This document shows, piece by piece, positions 5,160 to 13,209 of a DNA stretch of 42,605 nt (its first letter is position 1; every line of letters begins with the position of its first letter). The stretch spans positions 1 through 42,605 of IMG/VR virus record IMGVR_UViG_3300022074_000108; one strand, 5' to 3'. Source of the DNA: a virus. The position numbers and the translations under genes were made by a program. The notes below the pieces were generated by a model that worked only from the letters and a program-made list of their open reading frames with translations, was not told the DNA's origin and did no database searches.

Positions 5160-5349
5160 TGAAAATGAAACGTACTTAGATGCGTTAGAAGGGCGTGACT
5201 TAATGTATCACTTACTTGACTTAGTGCAAAAAGGTGATATAGAGGGGGACAACTTCACACAGTTCTTAGTTGATAATTTAGGCGATGACACATTTAATAA
5301 GTCAAGTGATGATGTTGTTGTAGAATTTATTAAGGAGTGTGGGTTATGA
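5146..5349 (+). CDS. Hypothetical acidic small protein
   Basis: The 67-residue acidic, helical protein starts at ATG 5146, chosen because AAGGAGG lies just upstream; the frame is open from 5074 but earlier starts lie deep in the neighbour. Function unknown. The stop overlaps the MazG-like gene's start (ATGA). Confidence 0.65.
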   Translation: MGVPSENETYLDALEGRDLMYHLLDLVQKGDIEGDNFTQFLVDNLGDDTFNKSSDDVVVEFIKECGL

Positions 5350-5675
5350 AACTTCCTGATTTAGCTACCTTAGAACAAGCCGTGATTACATGGCACAAAC
5401 AAAGAAACCTGATTGATGGTAGCACCGATCAGGCACAACTAGCAAAGCTCACCGAAGAAGTCGGTGAGTTAGCAAGAGCAATGCGTAAAGAAGAACCATT
5501 GGCAAACTATCAAACTGCTGATGCTATTGGTGATATATTAGTGGTATTGATTAATATAGCAGAACGTAATGCTCTTGATTTAAGGGTATGTCTACACGGA
5601 GCATACAATGAAATAAAAGACCGTAAAGGTAAAGTCATGTTTGGCATTTTTGAAAAGGAGGAAGATCATGGGTAA
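5346..5675 (+). CDS. MazG-like nucleotide pyrophosphohydrolase
   Basis: The 109-residue all-helical protein has the metal-binding pattern of the MazG/all-alpha NTP pyrophosphatase superfamily: EEVGE at 37-41 and DAIGD at 59-63. The family cleaves (d)NTPs to monophosphate and pyrophosphate; phage versions are thought to sanitise nucleotides or alter alarmone levels. With the HD nucleotidase at 1211 this gives two nucleotide-pool enzymes in the early region. The ATG at 5346 is preferred over GTG 5337 because AAGGAG at 5331-5336 has correct spacing only for 5346. Confidence 0.85.
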   Translation: MKLPDLATLEQAVITWHKQRNLIDGSTDQAQLAKLTEEVGELARAMRKEEPLANYQTADAIGDILVVLINIAERNALDLRVCLHGAYNEIKDRKGKVMFGIFEKEEDHG

Positions 5676-8367: not shown

Positions 8368-8889
8368 ATGGCTAGAGCTAAAATTACACACCGTCCTAAA
8401 TTAGAAGTAGTTGCTAATCCTAAGATTGCTTTTGGATTGACGCCCAAGCAAGAAAAGTTTTGTAAAATCTATGCTACTCAGGAAGTTACTCAGACCGAGG
8501 CGGCGATTGAAGCAGGATATGCGATATCAAATGCACATGCGATTGCTAGTAAGATGCTTAATGGTAGAGACTTCCCCCAGATTTTGGATAGGATTCACCA
8601 ACTTAAGATTGAACTACAGCAGAAGTTTGAAGTCACTTTTGAAAGTCATGTTCGTAAACTATCACAGATTCGTGATGAATCATTAGCAAATCAAAACTTT
8701 GCATCTGCCGTCGCCGCAGAAAAAGCAAGAGGACAAGTTGCCGGATTATATATAGATAGAAAAGAAATACTCCATGGTAAGATTGACCAGATGGATCGTC
8801 AAGAAGTGATGGACGAAATAAAACGAATACAAGCAGAGTTCCCACAACTAGTCAATCATGTAGACTCTAAGGCAAAATCAAAAAATTAG
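8368..8889 (+). CDS. terS: Terminase small subunit
   Basis: The 173-residue protein begins with a basic stretch, then LTPKQEKFCKIYATQ followed by QTEAAIEAGY, the HTH opening of the Terminase_2 small-subunit family. A long helical oligomerisation region and an acidic/basic C-terminus follow. The protein recognises phage DNA and recruits the large subunit for packaging. Unusually, the large subunit gene lies about 2.8 kb downstream beyond an accessory island. Start chosen at the first ATG, with no ribosome binding site (see the leaderless promoter). Confidence 0.85.
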   Translation: MARAKITHRPKLEVVANPKIAFGLTPKQEKFCKIYATQEVTQTEAAIEAGYAISNAHAIASKMLNGRDFPQILDRIHQLKIELQQKFEVTFESHVRKLSQIRDESLANQNFASAVAAEKARGQVAGLYIDRKEILHGKIDQMDRQEVMDEIKRIQAEFPQLVNHVDSKAKSKN

Positions 8890-8997: not shown

Positions 8998-9471
8998 ATG
9001 GCTAAATCAGCTTTAAAGGTTCAGGCACCTCAAAAGTCTAACACTACTATCTTCACTGGCATCAGTGGTTTATCTGCTGAGCGTATCAAATCACGTGAGG
9101 GTGTTACTCCAGCCGACATCACAGCTTTTGTTCAGCAACATGCTGGAGGCAATATTAACAATGTCGGTGTCAGGCTTACTGATACTGTTAATGTTAAGGA
9201 TGAGTTACCTTTTCCTTGGGAAAAGAAAAAAACTTTATATGAAGAAAATGGTACGGCAAAGTCCAGTCTTCGTGCAAAGGTCGTCTGGCAACTAATTAAT
9301 TCAGCTAAAGGCAAAGAGCCTCTTACTCTTGCAATGGTTGATCAGTTTCACAAATCAATTAAGGCACGTTCGTTTCATGCTTTACTTGATGCTCTTAATG
9401 GTGGACAATCCGCTAAGTCTACTTCCTGGGGTAAAAACTTCGTAGAGTTATACGTTATCCCTAAACAATAA
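8998..9471 (+). CDS. Hypothetical protein in a monocistronic unit
   Basis: The 157-residue protein is not recognised. It forms a single-gene unit with its own promoter (8913) and a strong terminator (9479). The leader ends in CTCGTAGAAAGGGG, a good ribosome binding site. The N-terminus is basic and Ser/Thr-rich, the centre has FPWEKKKTLYEENGTAKSSL, and the C-terminal half (LRAKVVWQLINSAKGK) looks helical. The strong isolated expression signals suggest an abundant product. Confidence 0.7.
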   Translation: MAKSALKVQAPQKSNTTIFTGISGLSAERIKSREGVTPADITAFVQQHAGGNINNVGVRLTDTVNVKDELPFPWEKKKTLYEENGTAKSSLRAKVVWQLINSAKGKEPLTLAMVDQFHKSIKARSFHALLDALNGGQSAKSTSWGKNFVELYVIPKQ

Positions 9472-10838: not shown

Positions 10839-10893
10839 TAGCTGTGGCGAAAATACCACACATAAATAAAAAAAAGTAAAAAAAGTAAAATAA

Positions 10894-10930
10894 GTGTTTA
10901 CAAACCTTTTTTAATTTAGTATTCTATAAT
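10894..10930 (+). promoter_or_regulatory. Promoter, GTGTTTACA class
   Basis: GTGTTTACA (10894-10902) is followed after exactly 14 bases by TAGTA (10917-10921) and TCTATAAT with TATAAT at 10925-10930. Arrangement and spacing are identical to 8923-8959. The TC at 10923-10924, inside the shared TCTATAA string, is one of only two GA/TC dinucleotides in 10850-11586. Confidence 0.6.
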
Positions 10931-10968
10931 TGCCACAACGGCTTAACCTTTAACATACGGAGTTTAAC

Positions 10969-11508
10969 ATGTTAAATACTTTTACAAATGTAACAAGTGC
11001 AGTTACACAAAAAAATGCACACACTGTAGCAAACCAAATGGTTGCTTTTATTAACGCCAATGGCGGTATTAATAAGTGGGCGTTGCTACTTAATAAAAAC
11101 GCTTTTACTGCTAACAACACTTTATTTGGTGGCGTTAATAGTAAGGGCTATTTATGGCAACCAATGCTAAAAGCACAAACCACACAAAATAGTGTGGCGG
11201 GTGCTATTTTGTGGGCTTGTGTAAATGGTGCAAATATAAACGCCATTAACAAGGTAGGTAAAACTACTTGCCCTAAAGCACACGCCAAGCTTGTTAACAT
11301 GGTTGTACCTACTGCACCTAAAGCAGTACCGTTAAACCAAATACAAGCTATACACCAACTTAGCGGTAGTAGTGTTTTAGCCAACGCCCAAAGCACACAA
11401 GGTTGTAGGCAAAACGCAGTTTGTGCCACTTTAATAGGTAGTTTTAGCTACCTTGCCAAAGGCACATACGGTACAAACTTTGCAACGCTTGTACCACTAG
11501 CTAGTTAA
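10969..11508 (+). CDS. Unknown protein encoded without GA or TC; no acidic residues
   Basis: The 179-residue protein is unrecognised. It contains no Asp or Glu and a single Arg (AGG), so it is strongly basic, with many Ala, Asn, Thr, Val and Lys. All Ser codons are AGT/AGC, Phe only TTT, Ile never ATC: all consequences of a reading frame without GA or TC. The pattern NQMVAFINANGGINKWALLL, GYLWQPMLKA and SVAGAILWACVNGANINAIN suggests a helical globular domain rather than random sequence. It is a monocistronic unit with a promoter (10894), GGAG site and terminator (11527). It is a real gene by signals and frame; its role is unknown. Confidence 0.8.
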   Translation: MLNTFTNVTSAVTQKNAHTVANQMVAFINANGGINKWALLLNKNAFTANNTLFGGVNSKGYLWQPMLKAQTTQNSVAGAILWACVNGANINAINKVGKTTCPKAHAKLVNMVVPTAPKAVPLNQIQAIHQLSGSSVLANAQSTQGCRQNAVCATLIGSFSYLAKGTYGTNFATLVPLAS

Positions 11509-11526
11509 AAACTAGCCCCACACATA

Positions 11527-11559
11527 GGGCTATGGCTTACAACCATAGCCCCTTTTTTT
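11527..11559 (+). terminator. Rho-independent terminator
   Basis: GGGCTATGG (11527-11535) pairs with CCATAGCCC (11543-11551) around a seven-base loop, followed by a T-run 11553-11559. It ends the 10969 unit and is itself free of GA and TC. Confidence 0.95.
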
Positions 11560-11582
11560 GGTGTAGTTGCTTAACATGTTAA

Positions 11583-11608
11583 GTATCCCCCCCGAGACGG
11601 GGAGATAC
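11583..11608 (+). other. GC-rich hairpin in the terS-terL island
   Basis: GTATC (11583-11587) pairs with GATAC (11604-11608) and CCCCG (11590-11594) with CGGGG (11598-11602), loop AGA. There is no T-run. It begins where the GA/TC-free tract ends. The remaining gap to the terminase start (11609-11736) shows no gene and no good Shine-Dalgarno before 11737. Confidence 0.5.
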
Positions 11609-11736
11609 ATGTATAGGTGTCAGGCTATACAGGTTCCAGACGAATCACACCATATCAGAAAATTATTTGTACATGACCCCCCTTTTGTGTATATATAGAA
11701 TCAGGTTCATGGTCCGTGGAAAAATTTTTATAAAAA

Positions 11737-13209
11737 ATGACAAAAGCCCCTTTAAACATACCTGAAGAAAAACTAAAGCATTACTTACGTTTGATAGAAA
11801 AACAGAAAGCGTTGACTACGTCTGAACAAGCTCGTGGTGATTTTATGCAATACGTTAAGTGTATATGGGAAGAGTTTATACAAGGCGAACACCATAAGAT
11901 AATGGCAAAAAAATTTAACGACTTGGCTACTGGAAAAATAAAACGACTTATTGTTAATATGCCACCGAGACATACTAAGTCTGAGTTTGCTAGTTTTTTG
12001 TTACCGTCTTGGTTGATGGGACGTAACCCAAAGTTAAAGATAATACAAGCTACGCACACTGGTGAACTTGCCGTGAGGTTTGGACGTAAGGTAAGAAACT
12101 TAATGGCGAGTGGCGAGTATAACCAAGTTTTCCCAGAAGTTAAGTTACGGTCAGACAGCCTCGCGGCTGGACGATGGGAAACAAATGATGGAGGTGAATA
12201 CTTCGCGGCTGGAGTAGGTGGAGCAATAACTGGTCGTGGTGCAGATTTAATGATAATAGATGACCCCCATTCTGAACAAGATGCGATGAGTCCATCCGCT
12301 TTGGAGAACGCATATGAATGGTACACCTCAGGTCCTCGCCAAAGACTTCAGCCTGGAGGAGCGATAGTTATCGTTATGACAAGGTGGAGTGAGATAGATT
12401 TAACTGGTAAATTAATGAAGCAACAAGCTAGAGATATTTTGGCTGACCAATGGGAGGTCGTTGAGTTCCCTGCTATTTTACCAGATGGAAAGGCAATGTG
12501 GTCTAACTTTTGGAAAGTGGAAGAACTGTTAAAGGTCAAGGCATCATTGTCCGTTGGTAAGTGGGAAGCTCAGTGGCAACAAAACCCTACGAGTGAAACA
12601 AGTGCTATACTAAAAAGAGAGTGGTGGAAAAAGTGGGAGAAAGAAGATATACCCCCATTGAATTATGTGATGCAGTCTTATGATACTGCGTTTAGTAAAA
12701 AAGAGACAGCGGACTTTTCAGCAATAACTACTTGGGGTGTTTTTTACCCAGATGAGGGTGGACCTCCCAACATTATTCTTTGTGATGCTAGGCGTGGCAG
12801 ATGGGACTTCCCCGAACTAAAAAAGATTGCGTATGAAGAATATAAATATTGGGATCCAGAATGTGTCTTGATTGAGGCGAAAGCATCAGGTATGCCATTG
12901 ACTCACGAACTAAGGCAGATGGGCATTCCTATACAAAATTATACACCGAGTAGAGGTAACGATAAATTTACAAGAGTTAATTCAGTTGCACCTTTATTAG
13001 AAAGTGGGTTAGTATGGTCACCAGATACTCGTTGGGCTGAAGAAGTTATTGAAGAGTGTGCGAGTTTTCCTGCTGGAGAGCATGATGACTTTGTTGATAC
13101 AGTAACCCAAGCGTTACGAAGATTTAGAGAAGGCGGATTTATAACCCACCCAGAGGATGAAGTTTATGAGCCAGAATATGTACCTAGAAATACAGTCTAC
13201 TACGGTTGA
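11737..13209 (+). CDS. terL: Terminase large subunit
   Basis: The 490-residue protein is a complete packaging motor and nuclease. Walker A-like PPRHTKS at 76-82, Walker B LMIIDD at 171-176, coupling motif MTRW at 214-217, then an RNase H-like nuclease with D316 (SYDTAF), E380 (LIEAK) and EHDDFVD at 448-454. It pumps DNA into the prohead using ATP and cuts the concatemer. Length is normal. No good ribosome binding site is seen before the ATG. Confidence 0.97.
   Translation: MTKAPLNIPEEKLKHYLRLIEKQKALTTSEQARGDFMQYVKCIWEEFIQGEHHKIMAKKFNDLATGKIKRLIVNMPPRHTKSEFASFLLPSWLMGRNPKLKIIQATHTGELAVRFGRKVRNLMASGEYNQVFPEVKLRSDSLAAGRWETNDGGEYFAAGVGGAITGRGADLMIIDDPHSEQDAMSPSALENAYEWYTSGPRQRLQPGGAIVIVMTRWSEIDLTGKLMKQQARDILADQWEVVEFPAILPDGKAMWSNFWKVEELLKVKASLSVGKWEAQWQQNPTSETSAILKREWWKKWEKEDIPPLNYVMQSYDTAFSKKETADFSAITTWGVFYPDEGGPPNIILCDARRGRWDFPELKKIAYEEYKYWDPECVLIEAKASGMPLTHELRQMGIPIQNYTPSRGNDKFTRVNSVAPLLESGLVWSPDTRWAEEVIEECASFPAGEHDDFVDTVTQALRRFREGGFITHPEDEVYEPEYVPRNTVYYG

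Follow-up and report, generated by a model that had tools for sequence, protein, structure and literature searches.

A transcription unit cleared of GA and TC dinucleotides beside the terminase gene of kinase-carrying phages: a possible exemption from the phages' own DNA modification

Why should a virus remove two complementary dinucleotides, GA and TC, from one stretch of DNA while keeping them elsewhere in its genome? The question is raised by viral DNA of IMG/VR record IMGVR_UViG_3300022074_000108, positions 1 to 42,605 of which make up the window, the whole 42,605-nucleotide stretch analyzed here. A first-pass annotation had described 10961–11586 as free of GA and TC steps, with TC at 10923 and GA at 10960 as the only exceptions on going back to 10850. 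Machine counting bears this out, as there are zero such steps in 10961–11585 and, in the whole of 10850–11586, only TC 10923, GA 10960 and, at its very edge, TC 11586. The gap between GA 10960 and TC 11586 thus measures 626 bases, the second-longest GA/TC gap in 42.6 kb being 74 (10849–10923, adjoining the zone) and the third 51, and no other dinucleotide pair has a gap of comparable length in the window. A dinucleotide gap of a different kind was noted in a related phage contig, where positions 264–893 of L124 form 629 bases without GG (log10 p about −6.5).

The stretch contains a complete unit whose parts can be recognized, all of them on the plus strand. A sigma70-like promoter, TTTACA-17-TATTCT (10897–10925), is kept in relatives and has its sole TC, that at 10923, inside the −10 box. 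It is followed by a GGAG resembling a ribosome binding site, with GA 10960 just before the zone, by the purged gene of 179 codons (10969–11508), and by an intrinsic terminator consisting of a GGGCTATGG hairpin and a T run (11527–11559), which is also GA/TC-free. The earlier proposal that one complete transcription unit is covered is borne out. Elsewhere on the same strand are the C-terminal portion of a DNA polymerase A gene, with which the window opens on the left (46–1236), the terminase small subunit (8368–8889, PF03592), an unpurged paralogue of the purged gene (8998–9471), and the terminase large subunit, terL (11737–13209), with ordinary GA and TC. The purged protein belongs to no Pfam or PHROG family, and searches of phage records and of GTDB genome contigs gave no match for it. 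Its predicted structure (pLDDT 80), apparently a novel fold, has no match in BFVD, and neither this structure nor that of the paralogue (pLDDT 85) has one in the PDB.

Chance, codon bias and protein composition were considered as causes and are ruled out by fixed-protein simulations under two codon-usage nulls. A fixed protein encoded with this phage's codon usage should give about 10 GA and about 20 TC in the purged gene; 0 and 0 are observed, and the zone is thus not a by-product of the protein. Codon junctions of the form G|A number 0 against about 6 expected when the null is taken from the codons of the paralogue, which is highly adapted. The protein itself has no Asp or Glu, against about 24 expected. 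Among the remaining dinucleotides of the gene, AA and TT are raised, GC and GG are common, and TG is ordinary.

Profile comparison (hhalign) of the purged family with the 8998–9471 family gave a probability of 92.5%, then 96.3% (E 1.6e-9, 108 columns), and on this sequence evidence the purged gene is a diverged duplicate of the family whose gene lies between the small terminase subunit and the unit. A second phage group has a purged copy that plainly belongs to that family. The possession of its own promoter and its own terminator gives the purged gene the layout of a moron; a foreign origin was rejected, as the gene duplicates the phage's own neighbor. The unpurged paralogue, with 13 acidic residues and abundant TC in the window, and 12 to 20 acidic residues and ordinary or raised TC across phages, provides a within-genome control. 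In all phages of the group the paralogue and its homologues are poor in GGA, AGA and CGA codons and rich in TTC and ATC. The paralogue is also low in sense GA outside acidic codons, and its codon usage looks like adaptation to very high expression.

The purge is conserved over considerable divergence. IMG/VR yielded 42 loci with the purged protein, amounting to about 28 distinct genes, down to 39–45% identity and with gene GC contents from 36 to 52%, and the purge was also found in copies more distant than these. Sense GA in the gene is 0 or 1 at every one of the 42 loci, against 10 to 17 expected given the protein in all lineages examined, so that the gene stays cleared while the protein diverges, as the first-pass annotation had suggested checking, down to 39% identity for GA. 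Sense TC varies, from 0 at most loci to 3 in L002, 8–10 in L026, L032 and L036–L039, 17 in L040–L043 and 29–30 in L003–L005, and it matches the expectation given the protein in L003, L005 and L040. These three are included among 16 genes in each of which G|A codon junctions number 0 against 6 to 9 expected (null from the paralogue's codon usage). The equal clearing of both strands, also proposed at first, accordingly holds for the window and most relatives and fails for L003–L005, L040 (G011), G050 and G072, in which sense TC is ordinary and sense GA almost nil. At L088, against this pattern, sense TC is 0 and sense GA 5, four of these five lying in acidic codons. Since GA is 0 or 1 throughout the 42 loci and TC is variable, the strict rule across relatives is the absence of TC from the template strand (read as sense GA), its removal from the other strand being common but optional.

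The flanks of the gene locate the level at which the purge acts. Across 25 loci taken together, there are 6 GA and 9 TC in the 110 nt upstream, where composition predicts 163 and 111, and 3 GA and 8 TC in the 70 nt downstream, where it predicts 91 and 119. The stretch from −110 to the −35 box, which the unit's promoter does not transcribe, has zero GA and TC wherever measurable, with the exception of L009 (1 GA, 3 TC). The target of the purge is DNA, because the purge extends to untranscribed DNA lying before the promoter, and the early suggestion of something acting on DNA is thereby supported. Avoidance of an RNase cutting at GA or UC, or a ban on acidic residues acting purely on the protein, might have been thought of given that sense GA is kept out more strictly than TC and that the protein lacks Asp and Glu. 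An RNA-level target is ruled out by the upstream DNA just described, and both forms of this explanation are largely refuted by the purging of codon junctions and both flanks; the removal of TC, moreover, has no amino-acid meaning beyond the choice of serine codons. We regard this explanation as hardly credible.

The purged stretch can extend beyond the gene and can contain a different gene altogether. Zones in relatives measure 616 to 1000 bp, with clear runs of 973 bp in L025 and of 991 to at least 1000 bp in L261 and L262. The zone of L025 (8244–9217) takes in a second, unrelated open reading frame for a small two-helix membrane protein, the L026 homologue of which has ordinary GA and TC. 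In L092 an unrelated gene of 221 amino acids occupies the same position (838–1503) and is purged except for CGA (9 of 9 remaining GA) and TCG (7 of 7 remaining TC), as would be expected of an enzyme that reads TC and not TCG; G069, which stands closest to it on the terL tree, has the same tendency. This suggests that the context in the L092/G069 lineage is TCH rather than TC.

The zone also keeps its position in the genome. The long records scanned have exactly one purged zone each, always directly before terL, and the zone ends 30–40 bp before a hyphenated dyad that precedes terL (11606–11635 in the window). Three contigs (L015, L023 and L024) end at the center of the equivalent dyad and a fourth (L076) begins there, and because of these four breaks the dyad is probably cos, the genome end. 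In the kinase-free relative DSL-LC04 (L054, 4327–5040), the DNA before terL is a low-complexity repeat rich in GGCC and GTGG, unlike the dyad of the purged phages. The palindrome TTAACATGTTAA occurs in the window only at 10964–10975, spanning the start codon, and at 11571–11582, at the zone's right edge; the spacing of exactly 607 bases recurs in each of the six nearest relatives. The left copy of several clade-1 relatives stands upstream of the promoter, at the zone edge. The palindromes were considered as ends of a mobile element and rejected as such, as they bound the zone in clade 1 and are absent from clade 2. One could ask whether unmodified DNA is needed at the genome end for terminase, for cutting at cos or for some other DNA-binding process, the gene being there incidentally, a reading with which the invariable placement directly before cos and terL and the clade-1 palindromes would agree. 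GA steps are nevertheless present inside the probable cos itself, and the zone follows the unit from promoter to terminator and not a set distance, with a strand bias that tracks the reading direction; we hold a packaging requirement to be very unlikely.

In long relatives, a module for thymidine hypermodification lies some distance away from the unit. The window begins inside polA, past the place where the relevant genes would stand, and the kinase and the thymidylate-synthase-like gene are therefore out of view. Long relative G002 encodes, just upstream of polA and about 14 kb upstream of the unit, a homologue of thymidylate synthase, a radical SAM protein of the SPASM type, a TAGT glycosyltransferase and a 5-hydroxymethyl-dU (5-hmdU) DNA kinase (PF18723, E 3.5e-49). 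Two possible nucleotide-pool enzymes, a YfbR-like HD nucleotidase (1211–1732) and a MazG-like pyrophosphohydrolase (5337–5675), are encoded in the window on the side of this module. All four genes, namely kinase, thymidylate-synthase-like dUMP hydroxymethylase, radical SAM and TAGT, are present in 8 of 8 long records with the purged unit, and the hydroxymethylase is also present in G021. A search with the kinase provided 30 long records to compare. Eight kinase records, all TAGT-positive and all purged (G050 and G072 for sense GA only), have the A3-type unit, which occurs in 0 of 19 TAGT-negative ones. The glycosyltransferase was nonetheless rejected as a required cause, because TAGT-negative kinase phages are purged too, with other members of the gene family: among the 14 whose locus is in view (counting G021), 12 show a single purged zone immediately before terL. 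Altogether, 28 of the 30 kinase-positive records with the locus in view are purged, several being near-copies of one another. The exceptions, G021 and G054, have the kinase and, at the locus, an unpurged gene of the purged family; ordinary GA and TC in relatives, which had been named in advance as evidence against the purge, are thus found in these two, and the GA rule holds at the 42 loci above. There is no purge around terL in five kinase-free relatives (HTVC027P, HTVC023P, DSL-LC04, 023Pt_psg01 and G035); the kinase phages Lydia and Sonora, however, also do without a purged zone. On the terL tree all kinase-positive phages fall into one supported clade (100/98), with G021 and G054 inside it, and since kinase and purge share this clade, their co-occurrence may reflect a single shared origin.

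The two unpurged copies also bear on a mutational explanation, in which a process at the genome end only turns TC into TT, and GA into AA, by erosion. The raised AA and TT of the purged gene would be in keeping with such a process, yet serine codons alternate between AGY and TCN, the protein is under purifying selection with third-position changes dominating, ordinary copies exist at the same place in G021 and G054, and in a number of lineages one of the strands is neutral with respect to TC. We give erosion next to no weight.

We turn to the explanation that we favor and consider rather probable, that the zone is a self-exempted, modification-free transcription unit of phages that hypermodify thymidine. 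The phage pathway would place 5-hmdU in DNA and then, by way of the 5-hmdU DNA kinase, would hypermodify T in a TC context on either strand. With TC gone from both strands (GA and TC in the sense reading), the unit would remain unmodified in virion DNA. In lambda-type phages the cos end enters the cell first, and on this analogy we assume the unit, which lies beside the presumed cos end, to be the first DNA to enter. Host RNA polymerase could then transcribe it from the entering DNA, where the template strand would present no bulky T, and the duplicated phage protein would presumably be needed early or in quantity. The first-pass annotation had come close to this in suggesting that the unit may need to remain expressed when the genome around it is modified. 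Among the sites that resist restriction in phages M6, ViI and phiW-14, TG or TC is overrepresented, which the authors credit to the 5-hmdU DNA kinase (PMC6449724), and T7 RNA polymerase is inhibited when U in the template strand bears a bulky or charged 5-substituent, the non-template strand tolerating it (PMC11550810). Taken together, a TG/TC context and template-strand inhibition predict that TC should be avoided on both strands and most strictly on the template; the proposed block of RNA polymerase by a bulky template T would explain why template-strand TC is avoided everywhere and non-template TC tolerated in some lineages. The T7 enzyme is a phage polymerase, the effect concerns mainly promoter positions, and it is only an analogy for the host polymerase; the TC context in these phages is deduced from the purge, the very thing it should account for. 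Elsewhere the genome is rich in TC and has to be transcribed too, so that the effect would be one of degree, or would be relieved by the unit's product. A bolder version, in which dinucleotide-context modification hampers transcription genome-wide, one gene is kept readable by deletion of the dinucleotide, and its product lets the hypermodified remainder be expressed, is possible but appears to us somewhat doubtful.

Self-exemption could also serve survival of the incoming DNA instead of its transcription. If the zone is unmodified, Type IV restriction could not cut the first-entering DNA before an anti-restriction product of the unit had been made. Type IV enzymes cut many phage base modifications, as reported for modified C (PMC13390438), and the unit adjoins the presumed cos end. 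Such a cutter should not distinguish strands, yet L003–L005, L040, G050 and G072 keep TC on one strand, and unmodified DNA would be exposed to ordinary restriction, so that we judge this purpose unlikely. Escape from a TC-context nuclease or deaminase, foreign or the phage's own, or the avoidance of a CRISPR protospacer-adjacent motif (PAM) close to the injected end, would suit a DNA-level, mostly double-stranded signal in the DNA that is most exposed on entry. No such enzyme was noticed among the annotated genes, and nothing there pointed to the TC deaminase or GA/TC nuclease first proposed for this locus. The remaining genome, moreover, is unpurged, the strand bias is unaccounted for, and the target of a PAM or host enzyme should not stay constant over such divergence; we consider escape of this kind most unlikely.

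The preferred reading, exemption from the phage's own modification, has partial parallels among known systems. One likeness is to M6, ViI and phiW-14 (PMC6449724), with which the long relatives share a 5-hmdU DNA kinase and a homologue of the thymidylate-synthase-like dUMP hydroxymethylase, 45% identical to the M6 type. The present phages differ in having one transcription unit cleared of TC, and the context predicted for them is TC (TCH in L092/G069) and excludes the TG reported alongside TC in those phages, because TG is ordinary in the zone. The first-step-transfer region of T5 has no EcoRI sites, which resembles the present case, granted the assumed entry order, in that first-entering DNA lacks a motif harmful to early expression; here, however, a dinucleotide has been cleared from an entire gene, at the price of all its acidic residues, and probably in response to the phage's own modification rather than to a host enzyme. 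T7 shows a bias in the orientation of its EcoP15I sites, likewise a strand-specific avoidance, but the T7 bias is genome-wide, whereas the present one concerns one unit and follows the direction of transcription. Phage CAjan carries dPreQ0 in GA and GGC contexts, a dinucleotide-context modification such as is predicted here. The 7-deazaguanine that had been suggested from this likeness is not supported, in that no such gene was noticed in the annotation (DpdA and Que families not being among the names searched), GC and GG are common in the purged gene, and the module is for T, not G. We found no described precedent in the part of the literature that was covered.

If the favored explanation is correct, this would be, to our knowledge, the first virus seen to shield one gene from its own DNA modification by unit-wide removal of a motif, a protection bought even at the cost of every acidic residue in the protein. 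The sequence context of an uncharacterized DNA kinase would have been predicted from sequence alone, and the manner in which host RNA polymerase copes with hypermodified phage DNA would become testable. The purge would also provide a simple signature for finding such phages, together with the gene that they need unmodified.
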